NCBI GenBank assembly: GCA_905339295.1
Contig: CAJPFI010000006.1
Location: 62,001 to 126,000 of the forward strand
Length of the DNA: 64,000 nucleotides
Direction: 5' to 3'
Source: Burkholderiales bacterium
GTDB lineage: Bacteria > Pseudomonadota > Gammaproteobacteria > Burkholderiales > Casimicrobiaceae
Shown: in pieces, positions 31,879 to 55,062 of the stretch
How positions within the stretch are numbered: the first letter of the stretch is position 1
How the letters are laid out: each line of letters begins with the position of its first letter
Program-made: the position numbers and the translations under genes
Notes under the pieces: model-generated
Seen by the model: only the letters and a program-made list of their open reading frames with translations
Databases searched by the model: none
Told to the model about the DNA's origin: nothing

Positions 31879-31882
31879 GCGG

Positions 31883-34114: not shown

Positions 34115-35572
34115 ATGACCGGGACGAAGCGCACGTTCCGCGAGCGCCTGCTCGAGCATTCGAGCAGCCTCGCCGACGTCCCGGCGCTGGTCTCGCCGTC
34201 CGCGAGCATCCGCTACGGGGCGCTGGCCGGCGAGGCGCACGCGCTCGCGCACTCGCTCCGGTCGCTCGGGATCGGGCCGGAAGCGACGGTCGCACTGACC
34301 GCCCGCGGCGAGGTCGATCACGTACTCGCGACGCTGGCGCTCCTCGAACTGGGCGCGTCGCAGGTCGCGCTCGCGTCGCGCGATCCGCCGGCGCTGCGCG
34401 AACGCATCGCCCGGCGGATCGGCGCCACGACCGTCCTCGCCGACCGGCAGGACGACGCGGTCGCGGGCCTTCGCTGGGTCGACCTTCGCACCGCGCTCGC
34501 CGCATCGCGCGCGAGCCCGAGCGGCGACGACGCATGGCCCGCGGGCGCGACCGCTCCCGCGTTGCACCTTACCGGGTCCGGCACCACCGGCGAGCCCAAG
34601 ATCATCGCGTTCGCGGAGCGCGACCTCGCGCTCCAGGCCGAAAGGCAGACCGACTTCCGCGGACAGCGCGTGCTGCGGCCCGCGCACGTCGAGTACAACA
34701 ACGCCAAGCGCATGCGCCTCTACACGCTGTGGCAGGGAGGGACCTGCGTGCTTGCCGACGGCACGCCGGAGTCGCTGCACGCCCAGTGCGCGCGCCACCG
34801 CGTCACCTGGCTCGAGCTCTCGCCCATGCACTGCAAGGACCTGCTCGCGGCCTGCCCGACCGAAGGCAGGCTGCCGTCGACGACGTCGCTGCGCGTGGGC
34901 GGCGCGCGCGTGCCGGTCGCCTTGCGGCGCGCAATCATGGCCGAGGCCTCGGCGGACCTGCACGTTTCCTACGGTACGACGGAAACCTCGCTCATCGCGA
35001 TCGCCGGCCCGGCGATGCACGACGAGCGCGAAACGGTCGGCCCGCGGGTGCCCGGTGTCGACGTCGAGGTCGTGCGCGGCGACTGCACGCCGGCGCCCGC
35101 GGACGAGGTCGGCGAGATCCGGATCCGCGCGAGCGGGATGGCGCGCGCGTACCTGGGCGACGCCAACGCGACCGCGCAACACTTCCGCGACGGCTGGTTC
35201 ATGCCCGGCGACCTGGCGTCGCTCACCCGCGACGGCCTCGTGTGCCTGCACGGGCGCCGGGACGACATGATGATCATGAACAGCATCAACATCTTTTCCG
35301 CCGAGATCGAGCGCGTCCTCGAGTCGCATCCGGCGGTCGCGGCGGCGGCGGCACTGCCGATCGCGTCGGAGGTGCACGGGCAGATTCCGGTCGCGGCAGT
35401 CGAGCTGAGGCGCGGCGCGAGCTGCACGGCGGGCGAGCTCGTGAGGTTCGCGCGCGAGGCGCTGGGCGTGCGGGCGCCACGGCGCATCGAGGTGCTCGCG
35501 ACGCTGCCGCGCAACGCGCAGGGGAAGATCGTCAGGCGCGAGCTCGCCGGCGCCTTCCGCGAACGCCGCTAG
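34115..35572 (+). CDS. AMP-forming acyl-CoA synthetase / ligase family protein
   Basis: A 485-residue ANL-superfamily enzyme. The P-loop-like motif is LTGSGTTGEPK (about residue 152), SYGTTET lies near residue 289, the GWFMPGDLASL segment holds the conserved Asp, and the C-terminal lysine is in LPRNAQGKIVRRELA. It should activate a carboxylic acid as the adenylate and transfer it to CoA or a carrier. It is shorter than typical long-chain ligases. It lies 34 bases after the Bug gene and is followed by the CMD-Rieske protein, suggesting a small catabolic operon for an aromatic or organic acid. Confidence 0.85.
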   Translation: MTGTKRTFRERLLEHSSSLADVPALVSPSASIRYGALAGEAHALAHSLRSLGIGPEATVALTARGEVDHVLATLALLELGASQVALASRDPPALRERIARRIGATTVLADRQDDAVAGLRWVDLRTALAASRASPSGDDAWPAGATAPALHLTGSGTTGEPKIIAFAERDLALQAERQTDFRGQRVLRPAHVEYNNAKRMRLYTLWQGGTCVLADGTPESLHAQCARHRVTWLELSPMHCKDLLAACPTEGRLPSTTSLRVGGARVPVALRRAIMAEASADLHVSYGTTETSLIAIAGPAMHDERETVGPRVPGVDVEVVRGDCTPAPADEVGEIRIRASGMARAYLGDANATAQHFRDGWFMPGDLASLTRDGLVCLHGRRDDMMIMNSINIFSAEIERVLESHPAVAAAAALPIASEVHGQIPVAAVELRRGASCTAGELVRFAREALGVRAPRRIEVLATLPRNAQGKIVRRELAGAFRERR

Positions 35573-35751
35573 GCGACGCGCGGCGCGGAGCTGCGCGTCG
35601 TCGTCGCCGGGAGGACGAACGGCAAGGTCCGGGAATGCGCGCAGCGTCGCCGTGGTTTGACGTCCGCGGCGCCGCGCACGTAAGCTTTGCGGCGCGCGGT
35701 GGCGCGGCCGCCGCGACGACGAAACGACGTGCTTCGAAGGACTCGACTGCC

Positions 35752-36396
35752 GTGAGCGATGCGCTAGCCTACCTCGTCAAGGCCCGGCCCGAGGCCATGC
35801 AATCGTATTTCGCGTTCCTCAAGACCGCCGGCGCGCATCTCGATCCGAAAACACGCAACCTGATCTCGGTCATCACCAAGGTGCACGCGCGCACCGAGAA
35901 CGGGCTCAGGCAGTACCTGAAGCGCGCGTTGCGCGAAGGCGCGAGCGCCGACGAGGTCGTCGACGCGCTGCTGATGGCGTTCCCGGCGCTCGGGCTCGCC
36001 AACATCGTGTGGGCGATCGATGTGATCCTGAAGATGGACCTGCCCGAGTTCCCGCGCGTGGCGGCGAGCGGCGCGCCGGCGCCGGTGCCGGAGCCCGCCT
36101 GGCACGACGTCGTGGCGGTTGCGGATCTCGCGGACGGCAAGGCCGTGCGCCTCGAGTGCGACGGTCGCGGACTGTTCGTGTACCGGAAGGGTCGCACGCA
36201 CAAGGTCTACGACAGCCTGTGCCCCCACCAGTCCACGAACATCCCGCATCTGGCGCTGAAGGGAAGCCGGCTCACCTGCCCGAAGCACGAGTGGGCGTTC
36301 GACCTCGCGAGCGGGCGTTGCGTGGCCAAGGGGGACGCGCCGCTCAACGTCTTCCCGCACAAGGTGGCCGGGGGACGGCTCCTCGCGCGGTGGTAG
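35752..36396 (+). CDS. AhpD/CMD-like domain fused to a Rieske 2Fe-2S domain
   Basis: A 214-residue fusion. Residues 1-100 or so resemble a carboxymuconolactone decarboxylase/AhpD-like helical domain (KTRNLISVITKVHARTENGLRQYLKRALREGASADEVVDALLM), but it lacks the redox Cys pair of AhpD. After a short Pro/Ala linker comes a Rieske ferredoxin domain with C-P-H (LCPHQSTNIPH) and C-P-K-H (TCPKHEWAF), the complete Cys2His2 set. The GTG at 35752 follows GAAGGA; the frame is open from 35635. The fusion suggests an electron-transfer role beside the ligase gene. Substrate unknown. Confidence 0.75.
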   Translation: MSDALAYLVKARPEAMQSYFAFLKTAGAHLDPKTRNLISVITKVHARTENGLRQYLKRALREGASADEVVDALLMAFPALGLANIVWAIDVILKMDLPEFPRVAASGAPAPVPEPAWHDVVAVADLADGKAVRLECDGRGLFVYRKGRTHKVYDSLCPHQSTNIPHLALKGSRLTCPKHEWAFDLASGRCVAKGDAPLNVFPHKVAGGRLLARW

Positions 36397-36512
36397 GTGG
36401 CGGTCCGGCGCGCCGCGCGCGCCCCGCCGGCCGCCCAGGCACGACGCGACACGGGAGCGGCGCCACCGTCATGTGCGCGCGCGTCCGGCGGCCCGCCCTG
36501 CGCGCCCTGGGC

Positions 36513-36518
36513 TAGAAT
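36513..36518 (+). promoter_or_regulatory. Possible -10 element (TAGAAT)
   Basis: A TAGAAT hexamer lies 37 bases before the small ORF at 36555; no -35 identified. Confidence 0.3.
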
Positions 36519-36554
36519 GGACGCGCATCCCGTGACGATCCTCCGGCGGCCGCC

Positions 36555-36788
36555 ATGATTCCCGATTTCACCGAAGCCGAGCGCGAGTCGGTCGAGTCGC
36601 TGCTGCACCGGCGCTACGGCCGGCCGACGGCGTTCGGCGGGGGCCGCAACCGGCAAGGCGAGCGGCTGATCGTCGCCGAAGTGGTGCGCGGGCGCGGGCA
36701 GGCGGCGGCCGACCGGCTCGTCGCCGAACCGGAGCTCGACCGGGTGTTCGGCATGACCCCCGGGAAGCCTCCGGGACCGGCGTCGTGA
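36555..36788 (+). CDS. Hypothetical 77-residue protein
   Basis: A small soluble, charged protein (MIPDFTEAERESVESLLHRRYG...) with no signal peptide or membrane helix. It starts after a promoter-like hexamer and ends 28 bases before the phosphoesterase gene, so the two are probably co-transcribed. I do not recognise the family. Confidence 0.5.
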   Translation: MIPDFTEAERESVESLLHRRYGRPTAFGGGRNRQGERLIVAEVVRGRGQAAADRLVAEPELDRVFGMTPGKPPGPAS

Positions 36789-36816
36789 CGCGCGGGCGCT
36801 GCGGCCGGGGCGCGCG

Positions 36817-37347
36817 ATGAAGGTATGCGTCGTGTCGGACAGCCACGACCGCGCTTCGATGCTCGCCGCGGCGGTCCTCGAGGCCCGGGAGGCCGGCGCG
36901 GAAGCCGTGATCCACTGCGGCGACGTGATCGGCGCCAACACGCTGCGCGCGCTGTTCCCGCTCGGGCTGCCCGTGCACTTCGTCCACGGAAACAACATCG
37001 GCGACCCGCATGCGCTCGCGCGGATCGGCCAGGCTTCCGGCGGGCTCGTCACCTACCACGGTGCGGATGCCTGCCTCGAGTTGGCCGGGCGGCGGGTGCT
37101 GGCGACCCACTACCCGCATTACGGCCAGGGACTTGCCTGCACCGGCGACTGGGACGTCGTCTGCTGCGGCCACTCGCACGAGGCGCGTATCGTCCGGCAG
37201 CCCAACCTCAAGGGCGGGCACACCTGGCTCGTGAACCCCGGGACGGTCGCCGGACTCGGCGCGCCGGCGACCTGGATGCTCGCCGACTTCGCGGCGCTGA
37301 CGTTCGAGATCCGGAACCTCGGAGGAGCTACCCCATCCGGGGAGTAG
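36817..37347 (+). CDS. Metallophosphoesterase, YfcE/MJ0936 type
   Basis: A 176-residue phosphodiesterase of the calcineurin-like family. The metal ligands are in order: SDSHD (residues 8-12), CGDV (39-42), the GNN segment near 57, H in ATHYPH near 97, and GHSHEA near 117. Small members cleave phosphodiesters in vitro; the natural substrate is usually unknown. A terminator follows directly. Confidence 0.85.
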   Translation: MKVCVVSDSHDRASMLAAAVLEAREAGAEAVIHCGDVIGANTLRALFPLGLPVHFVHGNNIGDPHALARIGQASGGLVTYHGADACLELAGRRVLATHYPHYGQGLACTGDWDVVCCGHSHEARIVRQPNLKGGHTWLVNPGTVAGLGAPATWMLADFAALTFEIRNLGGATPSGE

Positions 37348-37365
37348 TCCCGGCGGCGGTTTTTT
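37327..37365 (+). terminator. Intrinsic terminator
   Basis: CTACCCC and GGGGAGTAG form a stem with one bulge around a four-base loop, and an alternative CCGGG/CCCGG stem overlaps it. A run of six T at 37360-37365 follows. It overlaps the end of the phosphoesterase gene. Confidence 0.55.
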
Positions 37366-37455
37366 GTGTCTGATAGCCTGGTGCGTCCGGGCCGCCGCGC
37401 CGGCGGCCGCGCCGCGCGCACGCCGCGAACCCGTCGAGGCTTCCGCCGACCTCCC

Positions 37456-37722
37456 ATGACCGACGCCGCCAAGCCCTGGAGCAAGCTCGTCTACTACGGC
37501 CTGGGCTCCGCGGCATGCTACGTGGCGCTGTTCGCCAACGAGCAGGCCGTGATGGCGACCTTCACCCGGACGGACGGCGTGTACTGGCTGCTGCCGGTCG
37601 CGACGGCCTTCGTCATCTCCTATTTCCACGGCGGCTTCACCGGCTGCTTCTGGGAAGTGCTGGGCGTACAGGCGAAGCGGCCTGTCCCGAAGGACGTGAC
37701 GGAAGCGGAGGTGGAGGAGTGA
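37456..37722 (+). CDS. Small membrane protein upstream of TauE
   Basis: An 88-residue protein with two hydrophobic helices (about residues 12-27 and 40-58), joined by a short loop (NEQAVMATFTRTDG), and a charged acidic tail. The stop codon overlaps the start of the TauE gene (TGATG), so the two are translationally coupled. No family recognised; it probably works with the exporter. Confidence 0.65.
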   Translation: MTDAAKPWSKLVYYGLGSAACYVALFANEQAVMATFTRTDGVYWLLPVATAFVISYFHGGFTGCFWEVLGVQAKRPVPKDVTEAEVEE

Positions 37723-38765
37723 TGGATCCGTCGCTGTTCATCGAGCTCACGTTCCCGTCGGTCGCGTTCCTGCTCGTCGTCGGGTTCATCGGCGGCCTGG
37801 TCTCCGGGTTCATCGGCTCCGGCGGCGCGTTCGTGCTCACGCCCGGCATGATGAGCCTCGGCGTCCCGGGGCTCGTCGCCGTCGCGACGAACATCTGCCA
37901 CAAGTTCCCGAAGGCGCTGGTCGGCGCGATCAAGCGGCACAGGTACGGGCAGGTCGACATCAAGCTCGGGCTCTACATGGCCTCGACCGCGGCGCTCGGC
38001 ATGTGGTGGGGCTCGGGCATCCAGAAGTCGATCAAGGCCGCGTGGGGCGAGGCGGGTTCCAACCTCTACGTGTCCGCGGCCTTCGTGGTCGTGCTGACCA
38101 TCGTGGGGCTGTTCGTGCTGCGCGATGCGATCAGGATTCACCGCGCGGGCGAGACGCACGACGAGGAGAGGATCGGCAATCTCGCGCGCTGGGTCCGGTC
38201 GGTCGAGATCCCCGGCACGATGGTCACGTTCCATGTGGCCCGGACGCGCGTGTCGTTCCTGTTCATCCTGCCGCTCGGCTTCGCGACCGGGCTCCTCGCC
38301 TCGATCATCGCGGTGGGGGGCTTCGTCGGCGTGCCGGGGATGATGTACGTGCTCGGCGCGCCGGGGCTGGTCGCCTCGGCGACCGAGCTCGTGATCGCGT
38401 TCGTCATGGGACTGGGCGGCACGATCAACTTCGCGATGAGCGGCTTCGTCGACATCCGCCTCGCGATGCTGATCCTGCTGGCGTCGCTGTTCGGCATCCA
38501 GCTCGGCGCCATCGGCACGACCTACGTCCGCCCCTACATGATCAAGGTCGTGATGGCGACGATCATGCTCATCGTCGCGGCGAGCCGCGCGATCGTCGTC
38601 CCGGTCTACCTGAGCCAGCTGGGCCACATGGCGGTGAGCGACGCGACGGCGGGCGTGCTCAAGGTCGTGAGCTTCGCGTTCATGGTCGCCGCGCTGGCGA
38701 TCGGCGCGCTGATCATCATCGGCGCGATGGTCCGCGGCCATCGCACGGCGGTGGCCGCCGCCTGA
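37722..38765 (+). CDS. TauE/SafE-family sulfite or organosulfonate exporter
   Basis: A 347-residue membrane protein with about eight helices and the two repeated TauE motifs, FIGGLVSGFIGSGGAFVLTPGMM near the N terminus and GFATGLLASIIAVGGFVGVPGMM in the second half. The family exports sulfite, sulfoacetate and similar anions. It has a GGAGGAG ribosome site and is coupled to the small protein before it. The sulfite-oxidation genes start 2.5 kb downstream, so sulfite handling is a fair guess. Confidence 0.85.
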   Translation: MDPSLFIELTFPSVAFLLVVGFIGGLVSGFIGSGGAFVLTPGMMSLGVPGLVAVATNICHKFPKALVGAIKRHRYGQVDIKLGLYMASTAALGMWWGSGIQKSIKAAWGEAGSNLYVSAAFVVVLTIVGLFVLRDAIRIHRAGETHDEERIGNLARWVRSVEIPGTMVTFHVARTRVSFLFILPLGFATGLLASIIAVGGFVGVPGMMYVLGAPGLVASATELVIAFVMGLGGTINFAMSGFVDIRLAMLILLASLFGIQLGAIGTTYVRPYMIKVVMATIMLIVAASRAIVVPVYLSQLGHMAVSDATAGVLKVVSFAFMVAALAIGALIIIGAMVRGHRTAVAAA

Positions 38766-41235: not shown

Positions 41236-42063
41236 ATGCTCAGCAGCAACGCCTTCGCGGCGGTTTCGGGAAGCCTGCCCGCGGGATTCATGCAATGGTA
41301 CGTGGGGCTGATGATCGTGGCGGTCATCGTCGGCACTGTCGCGGACATGATCCACAAGGGCAGCGCGAAGTACTTCTTCGCCAACGCGCGAAAGACGCGA
41401 GCCCAGGGCAAACCGGTCAACAAGGCGTCGATCGCGGTGAAGACCCTCGCGGTGGACGTGCTCGCCTCGGGTGAGTTCTGCAATCCGCGGCGCCGCGTGG
41501 CCCACCTGCTCACGATGTACGGGTTCATCCTCTACGTCGTCACCACCGCGGTCATGGTGTTCGTCTACCCGACGGCCGCGACGCCGACGCCGGCCCTGGT
41601 GCCGCAACTCTGGTGGCTCGGCGGATTGATGGCCATGGTCGGCGGCTACTGGTTCTGGTTCTTCATCCGCGTGGACGTGGCGGCCGAGGGCAGTTCGCCC
41701 CTGCGTTTGATGCGTGCCGACCTCTTCATCCTCTCGCTGCTGGCGAGCGTCACGGCCGGCCTCCTCTGGGCCTGGCTGCAGGCGAGCGGCAGCGCGGCCT
41801 CGTGGCCGCTCTTCGGCCTCTATCTCCTCGCCACCACGGTGCTGTTCGGCGGCGTGTACTGGTCCAAGTTCGCGCACATGTTCTTCAAGCCCGCGGCGGC
41901 GTTCGACAAGCGGCTGGCCGAGGCCGACGGCACGAACATGAACCTGCCGACACTGGGCCGGGACGATCCCGCGCAGCGCGAGCGGCACTCGATGGAACTG
42001 CTGCGCAACGCCCCGATGGACATGGGGCTCGGCATCAAGCGCGAAGCTCCGCGCCACTACTAG
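41236..42063 (+). CDS. aprM: APS reductase membrane anchor AprM
   Basis: A 275-residue membrane protein with about five helices (near residues 20-38, 78-100, 118-136, 155-175 and 190-208). It lies directly before aprB and aprA, the arrangement of AprM in sulfur-oxidising bacteria, where it is thought to link the soluble AprBA to the quinone pool. Scattered His residues in the helices (for example AHLLTMYGF and SKFAHMFFKP) might bind haem, but this is not certain. The ATG at 41236 has a GGGGAGG ribosome site. Confidence 0.8.
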   Translation: MLSSNAFAAVSGSLPAGFMQWYVGLMIVAVIVGTVADMIHKGSAKYFFANARKTRAQGKPVNKASIAVKTLAVDVLASGEFCNPRRRVAHLLTMYGFILYVVTTAVMVFVYPTAATPTPALVPQLWWLGGLMAMVGGYWFWFFIRVDVAAEGSSPLRLMRADLFILSLLASVTAGLLWAWLQASGSAASWPLFGLYLLATTVLFGGVYWSKFAHMFFKPAAAFDKRLAEADGTNMNLPTLGRDDPAQRERHSMELLRNAPMDMGLGIKREAPRHY

Positions 42064-42109: not shown

Positions 42110-42589
42110 ATGCCTACCTTCGTGTACATGACGAGGTGCGACGGATGCGGACACTGCGTCGACATCTGTCCCTCGGACATCATGCACATCGACAAGACCT
42201 ACCGGCGCGCCTACAACATCGAGCCGAACATGTGCTGGGAGTGCTACTCGTGCGTCAAGGCCTGCCCGCAGCACGCGATCGACGTGCGCGGCTACGCCGA
42301 CTTCGCCCCGCTCGGCCACAGCGTGCGCGTTCACCGGGACGAACAGCAGGGCACGATCGCCTGGCGGATCAAGTTCCGCAACGGCACGGAGAAGAACTTC
42401 CTGTCGCCGATCACCACCAAGCCCTGGGGGCAGGCGATCCCCAATCTCGCGGACGTTCCCGCACCCAGCAAGGAAATGCGCGACGGCGAGCTGCTCTACA
42501 ACGAGCCGAAGTACATCCGCATGGATGAGGGCGGGCTGCACACGCTGCAGACGGCAGGATTGAAGCTGAGACAAGGGGTGTACTACTAA
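42110..42589 (+). CDS. aprB: Adenylylsulfate reductase beta subunit
   Basis: A 159-residue iron-sulfur subunit. Two 4Fe-4S motifs are clear: C-x2-C-x2-C-x3-C (CDGCGHCVDIC) near the N terminus and CWECYSCVKAC about residue 43. The C-terminal tail, ending GLKLRQGVYY, wraps the alpha subunit in known structures. It passes electrons from the FAD of AprA. Its stop overlaps the ATG of aprA by one base. Confidence 0.95.
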   Translation: MPTFVYMTRCDGCGHCVDICPSDIMHIDKTYRRAYNIEPNMCWECYSCVKACPQHAIDVRGYADFAPLGHSVRVHRDEQQGTIAWRIKFRNGTEKNFLSPITTKPWGQAIPNLADVPAPSKEMRDGELLYNEPKYIRMDEGGLHTLQTAGLKLRQGVYY

Positions 42590-44457
42590 TGGCCTTCGAA
42601 ACCATCATCGAAGACGGCATCGACGTTCTCGTCGTCGGTGCGGGCCTTGGCGGCACGGGAGCCGCCTGGGAGGCGCGGTTCTGGGGGCGGGACAAGAAGA
42701 TCGTGATCGCCGAGAAGGCGAACATCGATCGTTCGGGTGCGGTCGCCCAGGGCTTGTACGCGATCAACTGCTACATGGGCACGCGCTGGGGCGAGAACAA
42801 GCCCGAGGACCATGTCCGCTACGCCCGCATCGACCTGATGGGCATGGTGCGCGAGGATCTGCTGTTCGACATGGCCCGCCACGTCGACTCCACGGTCCAC
42901 CAGTTCGAGGAGTGGGGCCTGCCGATCATGAAAGACCCGAAGACCGGGCGCTACCTGCGCGAAGGGCGTTGGCAGATCATGATCCACGGCGAATCCTACA
43001 AGCCGATCGTGGCCGAGGCGGCGAAGAAGTCGGCGGACAAGGTCTTCAACCGTATCTGCGTCACCCACCTGCTGATGGACGAGAGCCGGGAGAACCGGGT
43101 GGCCGGTGCCGTCGGATTCAACGTCCGCACGGGCAACTACCACGTCTTCAAGTCCAAGACGGTGATCTGCGGCGCGGGCGGCGCCTCCAACATCTTCAAG
43201 CCGCGCTCGGTGGGCGAAGGCTCCGGCCGCACCTGGTACGCGCCTTGGTCGTCGGCCTCCGCCTACGGGCTGATGATCGACGCCGGCGCCAAGATGACGC
43301 AGATGGAGAACCGCATCGTGCTGGCGCGGTTCAAGGACGGCTACGGCCCGGTCGGCGCCTACTTCCTGCACCTCAAGACCTACACGCAGAACGGCCTGGG
43401 CGAGGAATTCGAGTCCAAGTGGTTCCCCGAGCTGCAGAAGATGGTCGGCAAGGAGTACCTCGATCCGGAAGCCTCGCACCTGACGCATCGGCCGATCCCG
43501 ACGTGCCTGCGCAACCACGCGCTGATCAGCGAGATCAACGCCGGCCGCGGCCCCATCCACATGGTGACGATGCGCGCCTTCCAGGACCCGCACCTGGAAG
43601 AGGTCGGCTGGGAGAACTTCCTCGGCATGACCGTCGGGCAGGCGGTGCTGTGGGCCGCCACCGACGTGGACCCCAAGAACGAGAATCCCGAGCTGACCAC
43701 CTCCGAACCCTACGTCATGGGCTCCCATGCGACCGGTTCGGGCGCCTGGTGCTCGGGCCCCGAGGACGTCTCGCCTCCCGAGTACTTCTGGGGTTACAAC
43801 CGCATGACCTCGGTCGACGGGCTGTTCGGTGCCGGCGACGCGGTGGGCGGTACGCCGCACGCCTTCTCGTCGGGGTCGTTCACCGAAGGCCGGCTGGCCG
43901 CCAAGGCCGCCTGCAAGTACATCGACGACGGCAAGGGCGAGGGCATCGTCGTCTCGGAGGGGCAGATCAACCGCCGCAAGGAGGAGATCTACAAACCGCT
44001 CGAGCACTATCGCATCTACCGCAATGCGATCGTCGCCGGCGACGTCAATCCGCACTACATCAATCCCAAGCAGGGCCTGGACCGCCTGCAGAAGCTGATG
44101 GACGAGTACTGCGGCGGCGCGACCGTCAACTACATGACCAACGAGAAGCTCCTGAATATCGGCTTGAAGAAGCTCGCGATCATGGAGGAGGATCTCGAGA
44201 ACCTGGCCGCGAAGGACGTCCACGAGCTGCTGCGGGCCTGGGAGCTGAAGCATCGTCATCGCGCCGCCGAGTGCGTCACACAGCACACGCTGTTCCGCAA
44301 GGAGACCCGCTGGCCGGGCTACTATTACCGCGGCGACGCGATGAAGGTCGACGACGAGAACTGGCACGTGCTGACGGTGTCGCGCCGCGACCCGAAGTCC
44401 GGCGAGTACACGATGGAGAAGGCGCCCTGCTATCACCTCGTGGCGGACGAGCAGTAA
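42589..44457 (+). CDS. aprA: Adenylylsulfate reductase alpha subunit
   Basis: A 622-residue flavoprotein of the fumarate-reductase/AprA family. FAD binding is at VLVVGAGLGGTGAAWEA (near residue 13) and at GAGGASNIFKP. Further AprA features are MENRIVLARFKDGYGPVGAYFLHLK and a conserved C-terminal region (TRWPGYYYRGD). In oxidisers AprBA runs from sulfite plus AMP to APS; with Sat at 46670 this gives ATP by substrate-level phosphorylation. The pairing with AprM and the absence of dsr genes in the window support the oxidative direction. Confidence 0.95.
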   Translation: MAFETIIEDGIDVLVVGAGLGGTGAAWEARFWGRDKKIVIAEKANIDRSGAVAQGLYAINCYMGTRWGENKPEDHVRYARIDLMGMVREDLLFDMARHVDSTVHQFEEWGLPIMKDPKTGRYLREGRWQIMIHGESYKPIVAEAAKKSADKVFNRICVTHLLMDESRENRVAGAVGFNVRTGNYHVFKSKTVICGAGGASNIFKPRSVGEGSGRTWYAPWSSASAYGLMIDAGAKMTQMENRIVLARFKDGYGPVGAYFLHLKTYTQNGLGEEFESKWFPELQKMVGKEYLDPEASHLTHRPIPTCLRNHALISEINAGRGPIHMVTMRAFQDPHLEEVGWENFLGMTVGQAVLWAATDVDPKNENPELTTSEPYVMGSHATGSGAWCSGPEDVSPPEYFWGYNRMTSVDGLFGAGDAVGGTPHAFSSGSFTEGRLAAKAACKYIDDGKGEGIVVSEGQINRRKEEIYKPLEHYRIYRNAIVAGDVNPHYINPKQGLDRLQKLMDEYCGGATVNYMTNEKLLNIGLKKLAIMEEDLENLAAKDVHELLRAWELKHRHRAAECVTQHTLFRKETRWPGYYYRGDAMKVDDENWHVLTVSRRDPKSGEYTMEKAPCYHLVADEQ

Positions 44458-44476
44458 CGGAACGCCGCGTGCGTAC

Positions 44477-46669: not shown

Positions 46670-47842
46670 TCAAGCGGCGATCGTCGCGTAGTACTGTCGC
46701 AGGATCTCGAGGACTTCCGGCCGGCTGAACTCCGCGGGCACCTCGGCACCCTCCGAGAGCGACTTGCGCAGCTGCGTTCCGGACACCTGCAGGCGGTCGG
46801 CGTCGTCGTGCGGGCAGGTGCGCCCCGACGCCATGCCGCCGCACCTGTAGCACCAGAACGCGACGTCGATCTTGAGCGGCTGGGTCTCCAGCGCGCCCTT
46901 CGGGATCCGGTCGAAGATGTGGTGCGCGTCGAACGGGCCGTAGTAGCTGCCGACCCCGGCGTGGTCGCGGCCGACGATCTGGTGCGAGCAGCCGTAGTTC
47001 TGCCGGAAGACCGCGTGCAGCAGCGCCTCGCGCGGTCCCGCGTAGCGCATGTCGAGCGGGTAGCCCGCCTGCACGACCGTCTTCTTCACGAAGTACCTGT
47101 CGGCCAGCACGCCGATCGCGCGCGTCCGGACCTCGGCCGGGATGTCGCCCGGCTTGAGCGCGCCGAGCAGCGAATGGATGAGCACGCCGTCGCACACCTC
47201 GATCGCCACCTTGGCGAGGTACTCGTGCGACCGGTGCATCGGATTGCGCGTCTGGAACGCGGCGACGCGCGACCAGCCCAGCGACGCGAAGAGCGCGCGC
47301 GTCTCGGCCGGCGTCATGAACAGCGACCCGTACTTCGCCGCGAATCCGCCGGTCCCGAGGACGCGGATCGGGCCCGCCAGGTTGACCTCGCCCTGCTCCA
47401 TCACCAGGCGCACGCCCGGGTGCGCGTCGTCGGTGGTGCGGAACACCGTCGCGCACTCGTGCGCCTTGTCGATCGCGTAGCGCTCGGTGACCGTCATCGT
47501 GGCGAGCGGCTCGCCATCGTCCGGGTCGACGAGCGCGATGTCCTGCCCGGTGCGGATCGTCTCGGCGAACGCGCGGCCCGCGGACAGCGTGATCGGGATC
47601 GGCCAGAACAGCCCGGAGGCCGTCTTCATCCCGTCGCAGACCCCCTGCCAGTCGGCGTGCGACATGAAGCCGTCGAGCGGCGTGAAGCCGCCGATGCCGA
47701 GCATGATGATGTCGCCCTTCTCGCGCGAGCTGACGCGCAGGCGGGGCAACGAGGCGGCACGGCGCTTCTCGGCGGCGAGCGCGTCGTTCTCGAGCAGCAG
47801 CGGCTTCAGGTCGCCGCCGCCATGGGGGTTCACCAGCGGCAT
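46670..47842 (-). CDS. sat: ATP sulfurylase (dissimilatory type)
   Basis: A 390-residue Sat. The catalytic motifs are [11 protein letters not shown] near residue 205 and [15 protein letters not shown] near 295; the metal-type cysteines [18 protein letters not shown] are near 335. It joins APS and pyrophosphate to give ATP and sulfate, completing the AprBA route. It is transcribed in the same direction as soeABC and follows soeC by 127 bases, so it could be the last gene of that operon or have its own promoter. Confidence 0.93.
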
Positions 47843-47969: not shown

Positions 47970-48950
47970 TCAGGCGATCGCCCGGTAGTAGAGGTTCTGC
48001 GGGTGGTTGGCCTCGGCGAAGAAGTACCAGCGCTCCGCCAGCAGCCCGCAGTACTGGACCAGGAACGCGGCCGGCAGCAGCGCCCCTCCGGCGCCGGCGA
48101 GGTACGCGGCGAGCAGCAGCGACGGAACGGCGAAGGCCGCGGCCAGGAACGCCCACCGGACGCTGCGCACGAACGTGCCCGCCTTGCCGTGGAAGAACTC
48201 GCGCGTGTTGAACGAGCCGCCCATGAACCCCATCGATTTCTGGACGATGCGCGGATGCTTGATGCCGATCGCCGTCTGCGGCGTCGACTTCGGGCGCAGG
48301 CGCGCGTTGCGGGCGAGCGACGCGAGGCGGCCGACGCCGGCGGCGAGCGTCAGGACGAGCGCCCAGACGGCGAAGAAGCGGGCGAGCGACGGCGCGCCCG
48401 CCGCGGCGTACGCGGCCGCCAGCGTGAAGCCGGACGCACCGCCCATCAGCGTGAAGTTGAGCGGCGTGAGTGCGCTCGCCCATTCGCGCAGGAACGGCAG
48501 GCAGGCGTAGATCATCGCGGTGCACAGGAACAGCGCGAACGCGAGCAGCGTGCCCGCCGCGCCGAGCGCCGCGGTCGCCTCGACGGGAATGCCGGAGGGC
48601 AGGGTCGCGAGCGCCGGCCGGTAGCCGACGTAGTGGATCGCGCCCCAGGCCGCCACCGCGGCCATGAACGCCGGCAGCGCGATCACTTCGCGCGACAGCC
48701 ACGAGGTCCGCCACTGCGCCGCCGCGCGCCATGCCCGCTCCGGCCTGCCGAGGTGGAAGAACGACGCCGCCAGCCCGGCCGCGAGCAGCACGAGCGCGAT
48801 CAGCGCGCCGGGCGCGTGGAAGGCGCGGCCGTCCTGCGCGGGCAGCAGGTCGAACAGCGCGTAGATCTCGGCCGTGTACAGCGCGAGGAACAGCCCCTGG
48901 CCGGCGCCGATCAGCGTCGTCAGCAGGAGCACCGAGAAGTCGGGCCGCAT
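47970..48950 (-). CDS. soeC: SoeC-like membrane anchor (DmsC/NrfD type)
   Basis: A 326-residue membrane protein with about eight or nine helices (starting MRPDFSVLLLTTLIGAGQGLFLALY). It belongs to the DmsC-like anchors of Mo-oxidoreductases; typical features are FFHLGRPERAWRAAAQWRTSWLSREV and GGSFNTREFFHGK. It would pass electrons from the FeS subunit to quinone. It starts 8 bases after soeB. Confidence 0.85.
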   Translation of the reverse strand: MRPDFSVLLLTTLIGAGQGLFLALYTAEIYALFDLLPAQDGRAFHAPGALIALVLLAAGLAASFFHLGRPERAWRAAAQWRTSWLSREVIALPAFMAAVAAWGAIHYVGYRPALATLPSGIPVEATAALGAAGTLLAFALFLCTAMIYACLPFLREWASALTPLNFTLMGGASGFTLAAAYAAAGAPSLARFFAVWALVLTLAAGVGRLASLARNARLRPKSTPQTAIGIKHPRIVQKSMGFMGGSFNTREFFHGKAGTFVRSVRWAFLAAAFAVPSLLLAAYLAGAGGALLPAAFLVQYCGLLAERWYFFAEANHPQNLYYRAIA

Positions 48951-48958: not shown

Positions 48959-49699
48959 CTACCAGGACATCACGTCGTCGAGCGACGGTTCGGACTTCGC
49001 CGGCTTCGGCAGGAGGCCGTCGACCTTGAGCGGGTTGTCGGCGCGCTCGAGCTCGTCCTCGTGGATGCGCATCGGCGTCTTGCGCCGCGGCAGGTAGTGG
49101 TTCGCCGGATGGGTGCCCCACTCGGGCATCAGCGCGTAGCCGGCGTGGTCGCGGATCGCCTGCGACACGACCGACTCCGGGTCGTGGATGTCGCCGAACA
49201 GCCGCGCGCTGGTCGGGCACGCCATCACGCAGGCCGGTCTGCGCTCCGCCGCGGGCAGCGTGGCGTCGTAGATCCGGTCGACGCACAGCGTGCACTTGGT
49301 CATCACCTTGCGCTCGGGATCGATCTCGCGCGCGCCGTAGGGGCAGGCCCACGAGCAGTACTTGCAGCCGATGCACTTGTCGTAGTCGACCAGCACGATG
49401 CCGTCCGTGGCGCGCTTGTACGAGGCGCCGGTCGGGCACACCGGGACGCAGGGCGGGTCCTCGCAGTGCAGGCACGACTTCGGGAAATGCACCGTCTGCG
49501 TGTTCGGATACTCGCCCACCTCGAAGGTCTGGACGCGGTTGAAGAACGCGCCGGTCGGGTCCTTGCCGTAGGGTCCGACGTCGGCCAGCGGCCCGGCGGA
49601 ACCGGACGTGTTCCACTGCTTGCAGCTCGTGACGCAGGCGTGGCAGCCGACGCACACGTTGAGGTCGATCACCAGCGCGAACTGCGTCATCGCGGGCAC
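48959..49699 (-). CDS. soeB: SoeB-like iron-sulfur subunit
   Basis: A 246-residue ferredoxin-type subunit with four 4Fe-4S cluster motifs: CVGCHACVTSC, CLHCEDPPCVPVC, CIGCKYCSWAC and CTLC...CVMAC. No signal peptide, consistent with a cytoplasmic enzyme. It bridges SoeA and SoeC and lies 19 bases after soeA. Confidence 0.9.
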   Translation of the reverse strand: MPAMTQFALVIDLNVCVGCHACVTSCKQWNTSGSAGPLADVGPYGKDPTGAFFNRVQTFEVGEYPNTQTVHFPKSCLHCEDPPCVPVCPTGASYKRATDGIVLVDYDKCIGCKYCSWACPYGAREIDPERKVMTKCTLCVDRIYDATLPAAERRPACVMACPTSARLFGDIHDPESVVSQAIRDHAGYALMPEWGTHPANHYLPRRKTPMRIHEDELERADNPLKVDGLLPKPAKSEPSLDDVMSW

Positions 49700-49718: not shown

Positions 49719-52625
49719 TCATGGTCGCGCCCCGCGTCCGGCGAAATACGCCTGGAACGACGGCGTCGCCGCGGCGGTTCCCGGCGCCGCCGGGACGGCG
49801 TCGGGCTGCGGCCAGGTGACGCGCGGCTCGTCGGCGGCCGCCGGATAGATGCGCACGCGCACGTCGTACCAGGCGGCCTGCCCGGTGATCGGATCGGAGT
49901 TCGACACCCGGCCGCCCCCGGCGTCCGGCAGCTCGTCGGTGATCAGGTGATTGAGCAGGAACCCGCGCCGCGACTCGTTCGCGTCGGGCGAGAGGCGCCA
50001 CGCGCCGGGCGCCTTGCCGATCGCGTTCCAGGTCCACACGGTCCCCGGCTCGACGGCCTCGGAATGAAGGCACATGCATCGGACCTTGCCCCAGGCCGAC
50101 TCGACCCACATCCAGTCGCCGTCCTCGATGCCCGCGGCGCGCGCGACGCGGGGATTCACGTGCAGGTGGTTGTGCGCGTGGATCTGGCGCAGCCACGCGT
50201 TCTGCGAGTCCCACGAGTGGTACATCGCCATCGGCCGCTGCGTCACCGCGGCGAGCGGGTACGTCGCCGCGTCGGCCCGCGCCGCCTCGAGCGGCGCGCA
50301 GTAGAACGGCAGCGGATCGAAGTGGGTCGCGATGCGCTCGCGCAGGTGGTCCGGCGGCTGGCGCGAGATGCCCTTGCCCTGCGCCGCGAGCCGGAACTTC
50401 TGCAGCACCTCGGAATAGAGGTGGATCAGGATCGGCTCGGCGTAGCGCTGGATGCGGTTGCGCTGCGACCACTCGAGGTAGCCCCTGTTCCAGTTGCGCA
50501 TGTACTGGTAGGACGGCGGCAGCCGGTAGTGGTAGACGCAGTTGTTCTGCGCGTACATCTCCCACTGCCGCGGATTGGGCTCGCCGCGCATGAACTTCCC
50601 GCCGTCCTTGCCGCGCCATCCGGCGAGAAAGCCGATGCCCGATCCCGGCTCGGTCTCGTAGTTGACGACGAAGTCCGGGTAGTCGCGGAAGCGGCGCGTG
50701 CCGTCGGGCCGCACGAACGCCGGGAGCTTCAGGCGCCCGGCGAGCTCGATCAGGACCTCCTGGAACGGCCTGCACTCGCCGGTCGGCGGGACCACGGGGA
50801 TGCGGACCGAGTCGACCGGGCCGTCGAACTCCGAGATCGGCCGGTCGAGCATCGACATCACGTCGTGCCGCTCGAGGTAGGTCGTGTCGGGCAGCACGAG
50901 GTCGGCGAACGCCGTCATTTCCGACTGGAACGCGTCGCAGACGACGATGAACGGGATGCGGTGCTCGCCGTCCTCGCCGCGGTCGTTCAGCATCCTCCGA
51001 ACGTCCGACGTGTTCATGGTCGAGTTCCACGCCATGTTCGCCATGAAGATCATCAGCGTGTCGATCGGGTACGGATCGCCGCGCCAGGCGTTGGTGATGA
51101 CGTTGTGCATCATCCCGTGCACGGCGAGCGGGTACTCCCACGAGAACGCCTTGTCGATGCGCACCGGCGTGCCGTCGTCGTCGACGAACAGGTCGTCGGG
51201 CTCGGCGGGCCAGCCGAGCGCGAGCCCGTCGAGCGGGTGGCCGGGCCTGATCGCGAGCGGCGTGTTCGGCGTCTTCGCGCAGGGCGGGATCGGGCGCGGG
51301 AACGGCGCCTTGTGGCGGAAGCCGCCCGGGCGGTCGATCGTGCCGAGCAGCGTCATCAGGATCGCGAGCGCGCGGACCGTGTGGAAGCCGTTCGAGTGCG
51401 CCGCGAGTCCGCGCATCGCGTGGAACGCGACCGGGTTGCCGGTGACCGTCGCGTGTTCCCTGCCCCACATGTCGGTCCAGGCGATCGGCAGCTCGATCTT
51501 CTCGTCGCGCGCGGTGATCCCCATCTCGTGCGCGAGCCGCCGGATCGCCTCGGCGGGGATCCCGGTGATGGCGGCGGCCCATTCCGGCGTGCAGTCCTCG
51601 ACGCGCTCCTTGAGCAGCTGGAACGACGGCTTGACCGCGGTGCCGTCGGGCAGCCGGAAGGATCCCAGCAGGAACGGGTCGGTCCCCTCGCGGTGCGTGA
51701 TCACCGGCCGGTCGGTCGCGCGGTCCCACCACAGCTTGTTCTGCGGGTCGAAGCAGCCTTCCTCCTCGGGCACCTCGGTGCGGATGAACATGCCGAACTC
51801 GTCGTTCGCCTCGTCCATGTTCACGAGCTGCCCGGCGTTGGTGTAGCGGACGAGGAACTCGCGGTCGTAGAGGCCGAGCGCGATCAGCTCGTGGATCAGC
51901 GCGAGCAGGAGCGCGCCGTCGGTGCCGGGCCGGATCGGCAGCCATTCGTCGGCGATCGCCGAGTAGCCGGTGCGGATCGGGTTGATCGAGATGAAGCGGC
52001 CCCCGTCGCGCTTGAACTTCGAGATCGCGATCTTCAGCGGATTCGAGTGGTGGTCCTCCGCGGTGCCGATCATCACGAACAGCCGTGCGCGCTCGAGGTC
52101 CGGCCCGCCGAACTCCCAGAACGAGCCGCCGATCGTGTAGATCATGCCGGCGGCCATGTTCACCGAGCAGAAGCCGCCGTGCGCCGCGTAGTTGGGCGTG
52201 CCGAACTGGCGCGCGAACAGCCCGGTGAGCGCCTGCATCTGGTCGCGCCCGGTGAACAGCGCGAAGCGCTTCGGGTCGGTTTCGCGGATCTTCGCGAGGC
52301 GCTCGGCGAGCAGCGCGTACGCCTCGTCCCAGCCGATCGGAACGAACTCGCCGGCGCCGCGGGGAGCGCCGGGCTTGCGCAGCAGCGGTCGGGTGAGCCG
52401 CGCCGGCGAGGTCTGCTTCATGATCCCCGACGATCCCTTGGCGCAGATCACGCCCCGGTTGATCGGATGGTCGGGGTTGCCCTCGATGTAGCGAATCTCG
52501 CCGTCGCGCAGGTGAACGCGGATTCCGCAGCGGCACGCGCACATGTAGCACGTGGTGTTGCGCGTCTCCGTGGCGGCGTCCGGGAACGGCGCAGCGGTCG
52601 GATCGTGGATCGGTGTGGAGGCCAT
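49719..52625 (-). CDS. soeA: SoeA-like molybdopterin sulfite dehydrogenase subunit
   Basis: A 968-residue Mo-bis-MGD oxidoreductase. The N-terminal 4Fe-4S motif is TCYMCACRCGIRVH plus a fourth Cys in VICAKGSSG; QTSPARLTRPLLR and the domain order fit the DMSO-reductase family. There is no twin-arginine leader, so it stays in the cytoplasm, as SoeA does. With SoeBC it should oxidise sulfite directly to sulfate, passing two electrons to quinone. The ATG at 52625 is chosen; the frame extends to 52652. Function rests on synteny with apr and sat; thiosulfate or polysulfide reductase activity is the alternative. Confidence 0.85.
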   Translation of the reverse strand: MASTPIHDPTAAPFPDAATETRNTTCYMCACRCGIRVHLRDGEIRYIEGNPDHPINRGVICAKGSSGIMKQTSPARLTRPLLRKPGAPRGAGEFVPIGWDEAYALLAERLAKIRETDPKRFALFTGRDQMQALTGLFARQFGTPNYAAHGGFCSVNMAAGMIYTIGGSFWEFGGPDLERARLFVMIGTAEDHHSNPLKIAISKFKRDGGRFISINPIRTGYSAIADEWLPIRPGTDGALLLALIHELIALGLYDREFLVRYTNAGQLVNMDEANDEFGMFIRTEVPEEEGCFDPQNKLWWDRATDRPVITHREGTDPFLLGSFRLPDGTAVKPSFQLLKERVEDCTPEWAAAITGIPAEAIRRLAHEMGITARDEKIELPIAWTDMWGREHATVTGNPVAFHAMRGLAAHSNGFHTVRALAILMTLLGTIDRPGGFRHKAPFPRPIPPCAKTPNTPLAIRPGHPLDGLALGWPAEPDDLFVDDDGTPVRIDKAFSWEYPLAVHGMMHNVITNAWRGDPYPIDTLMIFMANMAWNSTMNTSDVRRMLNDRGEDGEHRIPFIVVCDAFQSEMTAFADLVLPDTTYLERHDVMSMLDRPISEFDGPVDSVRIPVVPPTGECRPFQEVLIELAGRLKLPAFVRPDGTRRFRDYPDFVVNYETEPGSGIGFLAGWRGKDGGKFMRGEPNPRQWEMYAQNNCVYHYRLPPSYQYMRNWNRGYLEWSQRNRIQRYAEPILIHLYSEVLQKFRLAAQGKGISRQPPDHLRERIATHFDPLPFYCAPLEAARADAATYPLAAVTQRPMAMYHSWDSQNAWLRQIHAHNHLHVNPRVARAAGIEDGDWMWVESAWGKVRCMCLHSEAVEPGTVWTWNAIGKAPGAWRLSPDANESRRGFLLNHLITDELPDAGGGRVSNSDPITGQAAWYDVRVRIYPAAADEPRVTWPQPDAVPAAPGTAAATPSFQAYFAGRGARP

Positions 52626-52824: not shown

Positions 52825-53640
52825 TCAATGCCCGACGACGAGGACCGGGCATCCGGCTCCGCCGATGATCCGTTCGGCGGCTCCACTCGGCGCGAACCAT
52901 TCGCTCGCGCGCGGATGGCCGCGCCGCCCGATCACGACCAGGTCGGCGCCGAGGGCCGCGGCGACATGCCCGATCTCGTCGGGTCGCGCGATGGCAGGCG
53001 CGCTCGCCTGCGCGCGGATGCCGGCCCCGGACGCGACGGCCAGCGCGCGGTCGACCGCCGCCGCGGCGTCGCCGTGCTTCGACGGCACGCCCGCGATCGC
53101 CAGGGGCAACCCTGCATGCGCGGCGAATCGCGCGGCGGCCGAGGCCACGTCACCTGCCGTGTCGACGTCGTCGACCGCGGCCAGCACGCCGCGCGTCCAG
53201 AGGCCCGCGGCGCGCGGCACCAGCAGGGCGCTGCACGGCGACCGCGTCGCCACCTTGCCGACCATGTCGCCGACGAGCAGGTTGGCGAGAAATCCCTCGC
53301 GCCCGCGCCTGCGCACGATCACCAGGTCGGCCTGCCGCAGGGCGGCCTCGGCGACGATCTCGCGCCACGCCTCGTCGCCGCGGCGAACGCGCGCGTCGAG
53401 CCGGATCCCGGCGGCGTCGGCTTCGGCCTGCAGCCGCATCAGGCGGTCGTGGGCGTCGTCATCCGTTCGCTCCGCCAGCCCGGGCGCGATCGACTCGTAC
53501 TCGGCATTGGTGACGAGCGGCTGGACGGCCAGGAGCGGCAGGCCCCAGCGCGACGCGATGCCGAACGCCACGCGTTCGGCGCCCACGTCGAACTCGGTGT
53601 GCTGGGTCGCGAGCAGCGGGCGGGCGCAGGGCGCGGTCAC
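52825..53640 (-). CDS. Tandem universal stress protein (UspA)
   Basis: A 271-residue protein of two Usp domains. The first ends with VIVRRRGREGFLANLLVGDMVGKV... and the second with GRRGHPRASEWFAPSGAAERIIGGAGCPVLVV, both carrying the G-x2-G-x9-G nucleotide-binding pattern in some form. No ATG fits; the GTG at 53640 gives a normal N terminus (RPLLATQHTEFD). It starts 5 bases after the small membrane protein gene and lies in one unit with the TauE gene. Confidence 0.8.
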   Translation of the reverse strand: MTAPCARPLLATQHTEFDVGAERVAFGIASRWGLPLLAVQPLVTNAEYESIAPGLAERTDDDAHDRLMRLQAEADAAGIRLDARVRRGDEAWREIVAEAALRQADLVIVRRRGREGFLANLLVGDMVGKVATRSPCSALLVPRAAGLWTRGVLAAVDDVDTAGDVASAAARFAAHAGLPLAIAGVPSKHGDAAAAVDRALAVASGAGIRAQASAPAIARPDEIGHVAAALGADLVVIGRRGHPRASEWFAPSGAAERIIGGAGCPVLVVGH

Positions 53641-53645
53641 GGCGG

Positions 53646-54062
53646 TCAATGCCCCGCGGTCAGGATTCCGGACGCGGCCAGCAGCAGCACCGCGACGACG
53701 AGCGCGCAGACGGTGGCCATGACCTTTTCGCCCCGCTTCGCGAACAGCGGCATCACCGCGAGCAGGCACGGGATCGAGCAGCCGGAAAGGATCGCGATGC
53801 CGGCGATGCCGGCGTACTCGCCGTGGCCGAGCTGCGCGAGCCAGCCCCAGCCGGTCGGCGCGCCCGTCTCGGCGAGGTAGGCTTCCAGCGACTGCGTCCA
53901 CAGGACCGGCAGCTGCTCCAGCGCGACGTGCGCGGGCAGGACGCCCGACACGTAGGCGGCGAACGCGACCACCGCGACGGCGAATCCCGTCTTCGCCCCC
54001 CAGTCGAGCAGCGTCGCGTAGCGCCGCTGCAGCGCCGCGCCGTCGTCGTCGCGTTCCGTCAT
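53646..54062 (-). CDS. Four-helix membrane protein of the TauE-Usp unit
   Basis: A 138-residue protein with about three to four hydrophobic helices (near residues 25-45, 80-105 and 115-135). The GCSIPCLLAVMPLFAKRGEKV segment has two cysteines. No known family. It lies 7 bases after the TauE gene and 5 before usp, which fits one operon. Confidence 0.65.
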   Translation of the reverse strand: MTERDDDGAALQRRYATLLDWGAKTGFAVAVVAFAAYVSGVLPAHVALEQLPVLWTQSLEAYLAETGAPTGWGWLAQLGHGEYAGIAGIAILSGCSIPCLLAVMPLFAKRGEKVMATVCALVVAVLLLAASGILTAGH

Positions 54063-54069: not shown

Positions 54070-55062
54070 TCAACCCCATCCCAGACCCTTCTGCAGCGCC
54101 CGCGCGCCCGCGAACAGGAGCAACCCCAGCACGAGCTTGCGCACGACCGAGGCCTTCAGCACGGACAGAAGGCGCGCACCGATGCGGGCGCCCATCATCA
54201 TGCCGATCACCGAGGGCACGGCGATGACGGCAAGCGTCGCGCCCTTGTTCAGGTAGACCCACGCGGCGGAGGAATCGACCAGCGACAGGATGAAGCTCGA
54301 CGTCCCGGCGGACACCTTGAGCGGCGCACCCATCACGAGGTTCAGCACCGGCACGTTCGCCCAGCCCGCACCCATGCCGAACATGCCGGCCAGCACGCCG
54401 ATGCCGGCGAACAGCACGAGGGCGGTCGGCGTGCGACGCACGTGCCAGGCGTGGTCCCGGCCCGTCGCACGGTCGTGGAACACCCCGTGCATGCGCAGCG
54501 CGGTCGCCAGCCGGTCGGGGGCGACCTGCGCGCCGGATTCCGACCGGGGCGAGGCGGCCATCAGCGCCACGATGCCCAGGATCGTGGCGCCCAGCGCGAT
54601 CTGCACCACGCGCACCGGGAGCGCGAGGCCGACCAGCGCCCCCACGATCGAGCTGGCCGAGGCGAGCAGGGCGAGCGGCAGGGCGAGGCGCAGGTCGGCA
54701 AGGCCGCCGCGCAGGAGGCTGGGTCCCGCGGCCAGCGCGCTGGCCAGCGCAACCAGCAATCCCGCGCCGCGGACGAAGTCGAGGTGGAACGGGAAGAATC
54801 CGCCGACGATCGGGACGAACAGCACGCCGCCGCCCACGCCGGCCGGGACCGCGACGATGCCGAGCGCGAAGCAGACGATGAACAACGCGAGCGGCCACAC
54901 CCACCATGGGGACGCCGCCCCCGCCGCGGCGAGGTCCGCGGCGGATGCCGGATCGGCGCCGAAGGCGAGCGCGGCGGCCACGAGCGTCGCGACGACGCTT
55001 GCGCGTCGCGCGGTCGCGACCCGGCGCCCGGACTCGTACGAAGGGAGGGGAGTGTGGTTCAC
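54070..55062 (-). CDS. TauE/SafE-family exporter, second copy
   Basis: A 330-residue membrane protein with an N-terminal signal-like helix (VATLVAAALAFGADPASA) and about eight more helices. The repeated motifs are FALGIVAVPAGVGGGVLFVPI and GIGVLAGMFGMGAGWANVPVLN. It probably exports sulfite or a sulfonate. The start may be the GTG at 55062 or an ATG at 55161; the longer form has an odd basic leader and overlaps the TACCC motif. It lies between soe and the two-component system, supporting a role in sulfite export. Confidence 0.8.
   Translation of the reverse strand: MNHTPLPSYESGRRVATARRASVVATLVAAALAFGADPASAADLAAAGAASPWWVWPLALFIVCFALGIVAVPAGVGGGVLFVPIVGGFFPFHLDFVRGAGLLVALASALAAGPSLLRGGLADLRLALPLALLASASSIVGALVGLALPVRVVQIALGATILGIVALMAASPRSESGAQVAPDRLATALRMHGVFHDRATGRDHAWHVRRTPTALVLFAGIGVLAGMFGMGAGWANVPVLNLVMGAPLKVSAGTSSFILSLVDSSAAWVYLNKGATLAVIAVPSVIGMMMGARIGARLLSVLKASVVRKLVLGLLLFAGARALQKGLGWG

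Follow-up and report, generated by a model that had tools for sequence, protein, structure and literature searches.

A CMD–Rieske fusion protein as a candidate electron-transfer component found near sulfur-oxidation genes

The nearest described systems are Rieske proteins on one side and CMD proteins on the other. In known Rieske proteins, absence of the disulfide Cys and of the Ser/Tyr goes with a low potential, and in NirD the Rieske cluster serves a siroheme nitrite reductase. CMD proteins form oligomers, and their fold is found in AhpD and RclX (7y4r) as well as in gamma-CMD (2af7), TM1620 and single-domain CMD proteins. AprM, QmoABC and DsrMKJOP act in electron transfer in cytoplasmic sulfur oxidation, and for many bacteria the exit route of electrons from the cytoplasmic steps is not settled. 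We analysed a window (the whole stretch of 64,000 nucleotides) carrying a gene that joins a CMD/AhpD-like domain to a Rieske domain, hereafter CMDR. CMDR has the look of a so far unstudied component of electron transfer, and not of a member of a new pathway for organic acids; many sulfur oxidizers carry its gene next to those that convert sulfite to sulfate.

Domain architecture and predicted structure of CMDR

The CMDR gene (35752..36396, + strand) encodes 214 aa, with a GTG start at 35752 and a stop ending at 36396. This start fits an alignment of 51 full-length members (A1; 55-73% identity to the window CMDR), in which homology begins at residue 2 and S2 and A4 are invariant; the start codons of the aligned members were picked by script near this point of homology. 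We left out of A1 a locus with a broken frame (L069), the partial genes of L073, L075, L079, L081 and L082, two loci on the reverse strand (L002 and L007) and two duplicates (L032 and L033). A1 was then extended to a set of 90 rows, which takes in 19 class-carrier loci (carriers from the class of the window's genome) and leaves aside the remaining ones.

Pfam searches placed a CMD/AhpD-like domain at residues 13-91 (35788..36024, +; PF02627, 1.8e-8, 34.7 bits against a cut-off of 23) and, in the same frame, a Rieske [2Fe-2S] domain at residues 117-193 (36100..36330, +; PF00355, 2.1e-13, 50.4 bits against 20.3). With both domains over their cut-offs in one frame, the fusion proposed by the sequence-only reading is confirmed. 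The Rieske ligand motifs C157-P-H159 (36220..36228, +) and C176-P-K-H179 (36277..36288, +) are kept in all 89 rows that are not cut off, and ligands, PF00355 and fold together place this half in the Rieske domain superfamily; PF02627 likewise places the other half in the CMD superfamily. The CMD domain has no CxxC. Position 48 is T in 87 of the 90 rows and S in the other 3, and G51 and Y55 are found in 90/90, so the same reading was also right that the catalytic Cys pair is missing while the Rieske centre is intact. Apart from cut-off rows, the fixed positions are K43, G51, Q54, Y55, G63, E68, D71, P78, G81 and the Rieske ligands.

Pfam revealed neither an oxygenase domain nor a DNA-binding or signalling domain in the protein, and the identity of a Rieske oxygenase was rejected because this search found no oxygenase domain. 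The N-terminus (MSDAL...) is hydrophilic and showed no signal peptide by inspection, which suggests that the protein is cytoplasmic. Residues 75-93 (19 residues) have a Kyte-Doolittle mean of 1.86, the customary threshold for a membrane helix being 1.6; we take this stretch, a helix of the CMD fold, to be buried and not a membrane helix. A scan of 35300-37500 for promoters and terminators found nothing, and Rfam gave no match at gathering scores in the 64-kb window.

An AlphaFold2 model built from 51 sequences had a mean pLDDT of 91.7 and a pTM of 0.56, values at which both domains are sure in the model and their relative placing is unsure. The best fold match of the Rieske part was 2qpz, the naphthalene dioxygenase ferredoxin (Z 14.5, 3.2 Å over 101 residues). 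The CMD part gave profile matches to the CMD chains 7y4r (6.3e-7, the best), 2q0t (8.9e-7) and 2af7 (1.8e-5). When modelled alone it reached a pLDDT of 93 and matched 2af7, 1p8c, 1vke, 3d7i and 2qeu at Z 9.8-11.0 with an rmsd of 6-8 Å, perhaps reflecting a hinge difference; the CMD part of the full model superposes on 2af7 at 2.0 Å over 72 residues. Z values of 9.8-11.0 alone would not decide a helical fold, and it is the sequence matches that decide the assignment to the CMD family. Cobalamin-binding helical domains were rejected as relatives of this part, their scores of Z 7.3 and less being taken as a common helical arrangement.

The CMD part is 29-30% identical to 7y4r, whose Cys pair aligns to T48 and G51 and whose His aligns to Y55, and AhpD chemistry is therefore excluded for CMDR. 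An AhpD-type peroxidase was rejected on the same grounds: CxxC is absent, and the catalytic Cys pair and His are replaced by T/S48, G51 and Y55. The loss of the Cys pair is less striking than it first seemed, because gamma-CMD 2af7 also has no Cys at these positions. A bc1-type Rieske protein was likewise rejected. On inspection of the alignment, the ligand loops (CPHQ and CPKHEWAF) have neither the disulfide Cys nor the Ser/Tyr positions of high-potential Rieske proteins, and the protein has a hydrophilic start instead of a membrane helix. Since these residues are absent, the potential of the cluster would be low.

Conservation, distribution and genome-level co-occurrence

A scan of genome contigs gave 53 named loci from records of beta- and gammaproteobacteria and, in a few cases, of alphaproteobacteria; the majority were full length, with 53-73% identity. 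In two samples that were drawn evenly, CMDR was present in 27 of 274 genomes of the class (E up to 1e-30; one copy each, the window's genome included) and in 41 of 200 genomes of the phylum, 40 of these outside the class. The 40 outside carriers scored 162-195 bits, compared with 357 bits for the window's own copy, and their sequences indicate that they are a second, more distant CMDR subfamily; the 20 rows compared were 35-45% identical to the window CMDR. Two class carriers of one genus (G169 and G299) matched the profile over positions 1-107 only. At their loci, L119 and L123, the linker is much longer and the Rieske half has diverged; in L119 this half is cut off by the contig end.

The fused architecture was seen in all 51 aligned members. 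We also searched 100 genomes with the CMD part alone. Of the matches, 24 reached about 160 bits or higher, each at the site of a fusion; below a gap came five more in short frames (120-138 residues), none above 49 bits. This CMD type without a Rieske partner is absent from the 100-genome sample. No plasmid-borne CMDR covering 80% of the query was found; there were three plasmid matches, essentially to the Rieske part. One of them, on a Thermus plasmid (NC_017273.1:391732-392142), coincides with features whose annotations read NifU family protein and NHL-repeat protein, and is perhaps another unusual Rieske fusion.

Mean conservation over the 90 rows was 0.74 in the CMD half, 0.58 in the Rieske half and 0.27 in the linker. 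The CMD half is better conserved than a mere scaffold would need, which counts against a pure carrier, and it may be catalytic. CMDR could then be an enzyme whose CMD pocket (K43, T48, Q54, Y55 and neighbours) binds a small substrate while the Rieske cluster supplies or removes electrons, for instance in detoxifying reactive sulfur, peroxide or quinone species. The fixed T/S48, G51 and Y55 at the AhpD-type Cys, Cys and His positions agree with such a pocket, as does the finding that every strong match of this CMD type in the 100 genomes is fused to a Rieske domain. However, there are no redox cysteines at the AhpD positions, nothing points to a substrate, and the pTM of 0.56 makes the domain placing, and hence the distance from pocket to cluster, uncertain. 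We consider an enzyme possible but doubtful.

At the genome level, none of four sulfur-oxidation markers was significantly enriched in the class carriers. dsrA was present in 14/27 carriers and 78/247 non-carriers (p 0.051), aprA in 12/27 and 70/247 (p 0.12), soeA-like genes in 9/27 and 73/247 (p 0.66), and soxB in 11/27 and 103/247 (p 1.0). At the thresholds used, 11 of the 27 carriers missed all four. Neither RuBisCO (12/27 carriers, 26/45 chosen non-carriers) nor DsrE2 (14/27 and 21/45) was enriched. These results count against a sulfur carrier, and the marker-free carriers, together with the RuBisCO and DsrE2 counts, led us to reject CMDR as a strict marker of sulfur oxidizers or autotrophs. 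Outside the class, 37 of 40 carriers had dsrA, 36 of them with scores above the curated cut-off, compared with 0 of 40 chosen non-carriers, a difference confounded by clade, as the carriers may well form one clade. Our guess is that these outside carriers may be Magnetococcia. Oxidative Dsr is reported for Magnetococcia in PMC10591310, and a sulfur-context text search of PMC11406059 gave no match.

Physical nearness is a stronger test than co-occurrence inside the class. soxB or dsrA lay within 10 kb of CMDR in four class carriers (G181, G186, G310 and G331), where 0.28 marker genes were expected over the 15 marker-bearing carriers besides the window's genome. The resulting Poisson P of 2e-4 is rough, as it ignores contig ends and marker clustering, and it leaves out the window's genome, in which aprA lies 6.2 kb from CMDR.

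Gene neighbourhoods in the window and in other genomes

A downstream neighbour of CMDR encodes a YfcE-type metallophosphoesterase (36817..37347, +; PF12850, 2.8e-28), which is kept in relatives. It is followed by a TauE/SafE-type permease of the sulfite exporter family (37719..38765, +; PF01925, 4.8e-37 on the longer frame 37515-38765). A membrane protein that we take to be AprM-like (41236..42063, +) has no Pfam match, only weak TcuB/QmoC matches below cut-off, and lies directly before aprB (APS reductase beta subunit; 42110..42589, +; TIGR02060, 210 of 135.65 bits) and aprA (alpha subunit; 42589..44457, +; TIGR02061, 1075.5 of 641.75 bits). A LysR gene is also downstream of CMDR, in listed order between aprA and sat (sulfate adenylyltransferase; 46670..47842, -; PF01747, with TIGR00339 over cut-off). 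The next three genes, presumably soeC, soeB and soeA, encode an anchor subunit (47970..48950, -; PF04976 DmsC), an iron-sulfur subunit (48959..49699, -; PF13247) and a molybdopterin subunit (49719..52625, -; PF00384), the last 76% identical to the soeA-like protein of L055. Beyond them are a Usp-domain protein (52825..53649, -; PF00582), a small membrane protein (53646..54062, -) that travels with Usp and TauE according to the neighbourhood comparison, and the TauE/SafE permease of the soe-like cluster (54070..54981, -; PF01925, also seen in that comparison). From 41236 to 54981 the window therefore holds an island with both sulfite-oxidation routes, aprMBA plus sat and a soeABC-like complex with its TauE/SafE permease. 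A relative of the small membrane protein at L047:4172-4609 has no Pfam match, and a Tll0287-like protein (40351-40911, -; PF11845) is encoded on the opposite strand immediately ahead of the apr genes.

Upstream of CMDR are genes for an acid-CoA ligase and a Bug protein. The sequence-only reading had placed them in one operon with CMDR, which it thought may belong to an undescribed catabolic route. They do lie on the same strand, and the ligase stop is 179 bases upstream of the CMDR start, but the arrangement is not conserved: relatives with 38% identity or more across 40% of the length occur near CMDR in 1 of 117 other loci. This is the congener locus L170, where a related pair is again upstream and the ligase match stops some 1.4 kb short of CMDR; the pair is absent from the four other congener loci examined. 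The ligase and Bug neighbours are incidental, and with sulfur- and sulfite-oxidation genes recurring in their place, a role of CMDR in a new organic-acid route is very improbable; the catabolic operon was rejected on the 1/117 count. Before the Bug/ligase pair, on the other strand, lie a class-III aminotransferase gene and an RpiR-type regulator gene (29537-32770, -), with what we take to be a possible TAXI-type binding protein beside them.

Four of the five congener loci keep parts of the window island beside CMDR in differing orders. L031 reads CMDR-YfcE-aprMBA-sat-soeCB; L169 has the Usp-small protein-TauE group, YfcE and sat near CMDR; L171 has the same group plus YfcE, aprM and aprB; and L170 has YfcE-aprM. 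The fifth, L172, has none of the island genes, and its twin L032, with an identical CMDR, has a dsrC-family gene and a CobB-type gene. For L169-L173 one set of gene calls in antisense frames was discarded and the comparison of congener loci was used instead.

Across the 53 named loci, all of which were counted although many are on short contigs, at least one core sulfur gene was found in 31 (30 without the ambiguous L039), with labels that are partly assumed. By type there were 11 loci with apr, 9 with dsr-type, 4 with sox and 17 with soe-type genes; the last count includes L036, L037 and L039, each entered for no more than a ferredoxin-like subunit, and in L036 and L037 the "soeB" label is probably DsrO. 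For the representatives tested, scores against family models bear out the labels dsrA, DsrC/TusE family, soxB, soxY and sat; a representative labelled dsrN scored as CobB. The names dsrE, dsrF, dsrK, dsrN, dsrP, dsrR, soxZ, aprM and soe, as well as Qmo, MsrPQ, PP2C, antiporter and dnaG, are assumptions based on the sequences, their sizes and the order of the genes. Together with the four class carriers at 10 kb or less, these counts indicate that CMDR is recurrently linked to sulfur-oxidation genes.

Close spacing was surveyed in the 48 loci, several of them closely related, for which gene calling had placed the focal gene; the window is one of them. Six loci whose focal gene was missed in the first round of calling are absent from the neighbourhood maps. 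Directly upstream of CMDR, a Usp gene was found in 12 of the 48, overlapping in 9. Next downstream, a FadL-type porin was found in 13 of 48, YfcE in 8 loci besides the window at 11-26 bp (420 bp in the window), and a multihaem cytochrome in 3 loci at 330-501 bp. A BenC-like Fer2-FAD-NAD reductase (106.9 bits, below the 430 cut-off) is directly upstream in L041 (114 bp) and L044 (20 bp), in line with an electron carrier. Siroheme synthase or uroporphyrinogen methyltransferase genes lie on the same strand at -4 to 32 bp from CMDR in 6 loci and converge with it at 37-38 bp in 2. CysG scored over cut-off in L041 (8629-10056) and L057 (4430-5428), as did the methyltransferase in L039 (7153-8004); this operon-like spacing was seen in separate clades.

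The Usp-domain and YfcE neighbours in part of the loci, and the wide spread of CMDR in varied contexts, would also suit a redox or sulfite sensor, in which the state of the cluster alters the CMD oligomer and so signals to a regulator or enzyme. Against this, the protein contains no DNA-binding or signalling domain that we could find, and we regard a sensor as quite unlikely.

Other neighbourhoods have no sulfur context. Some gammaproteobacterial loci carry ileS-lspA, and nine loci have F20 beside what we take to be PP2C-type and antiporter-type genes. F20 is a small, N-terminally anchored protein of about 150-190 aa with two conserved Cys, encoded directly upstream of CMDR in L113 (8745-9203), L076, L111, L114, L115, L119, L120, L121 and L123, mostly in gammaproteobacteria without the four sulfur markers. 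The second subfamily has varied, mostly housekeeping neighbours, such as a presumed dnaG-like gene. In L149 and L155, presumed MsrP- and MsrQ-like genes (methionine sulfoxide reductase) lie directly behind CMDR. The ileS-lspA and housekeeping neighbours and the 11 marker-free class carriers would fit a general cytoplasmic redox housekeeping protein, whose nearness to sulfur genes would reflect genome layout in a few lineages. Two results argue otherwise. Sulfur genes of different modules recur in separate clades, the sulfur label changing 8 times on a quick tree of 46 labelled rows (29 positive) with many modest supports, and the nearness in the class sample is beyond chance. We think a housekeeping role unlikely.

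Proposed role and comparison with known systems

The explanation we prefer, at a rough probability of 0.45, is that CMDR is a soluble, cytoplasmic and probably low-potential one-electron Rieske carrier on a CMD-fold platform, used in sulfite or sulfur oxidation where that is present. Of the two functions offered by the sequence-only reading, electron transfer or sensing, the former is our best guess in view of the intact ligands, the ferredoxin-like fold and the lack of an oxygenase domain, and the latter ranks lower. The C-terminal Rieske domain would assemble its cluster and carry the electron. The N-terminal CMD-fold domain, without redox cysteines, would form an oligomer and, through a conserved pocket or surface, bind a ligand or let a redox partner dock. 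The CMDR of sulfur oxidizers would work beside cytoplasmic enzymes that form or oxidize sulfite (Dsr, Apr, Soe-like). Electrons might pass to or from a reductase or quinone-linked partner, or the Rieske centre might exchange them with an enzyme of the sulfur pathway or with a flavin reductase, and the direction of flow may be either. In carriers without Dsr, Apr or Soe-like enzymes, CMDR would presumably serve another partner. We name no single partner, since the neighbours vary from clade to clade.

In a narrower form of this proposal, which we hold to be rather improbable, CMDR would be a dedicated redox partner of cytoplasmic sulfur or sulfite oxidation, accepting electrons from a DsrAB-type siroheme enzyme or from one that oxidizes sulfite. 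It would then resemble NirD, working in the oxidative direction, and the siroheme-synthase operons would be a trace of that link. The link to sulfur oxidation is not exclusive, and the mechanism is a proposal. Even so, a strongly conserved, unnamed protein with apr, soe-like, dsr, sox and siroheme genes as recurrent neighbours is a concrete candidate for purification and knock-out.

Among described families, no NCBIfam model scored over its cut-off for the window CMDR. Among named Rieske subfamilies it scored best against MocE (31.5 bits, cut-off 136.15) and NirD (30.5 bits, cut-off 74.65), and at the NCBIfam cut-offs the protein belongs to none of MocE, NirD, AndAb and HcaC. The nine NCBIfam models matched by the 51 A1 members are Rieske or single-domain families, none of which describes the fusion. 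Nor did the open-licence literature searched yield a description of a CMD–Rieske fusion, a mention inside full texts being possible; as far as searched, then, the architecture is not a known, characterised family.

The Rieske ferredoxins NdoA, CarAc and T4moC share the Rieske fold and the CxH/CxxH ligands with CMDR. In fold comparison, the listed ferredoxins of dioxygenases and of toluene monooxygenase gave Z 11.9-14.5, and E. coli NirD (2jo6) gave 10.9. In contrast to NdoA, CarAc, T4moC and NirD, CMDR has an extra N-terminal CMD domain. No oxygenase gene was found near CMDR among the annotated neighbour families, many neighbours having no annotation.

Gamma-CMD, TM1620 and the single-domain CMD proteins belong, as CMDR does, to the CMD family by profile and fold. 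CMDR differs from gamma-CMD and the single-domain proteins in its fusion to a Rieske domain, in the Tyr at the His position and in its sulfur-gene neighbourhood. Judged by domain content, AprM, QmoABC and DsrMKJOP differ from CMDR. AprM-like genes lie close to CMDR in the window as well as in 11 of 117 loci, and presumed Qmo- and DsrK/DsrP-like genes in a few; the literature searched holds no description of CMDR as part of these systems. Both domains of CMDR are thus known from other proteins, and what appears to be new is their fusion, which the family libraries used here know only as two domains.
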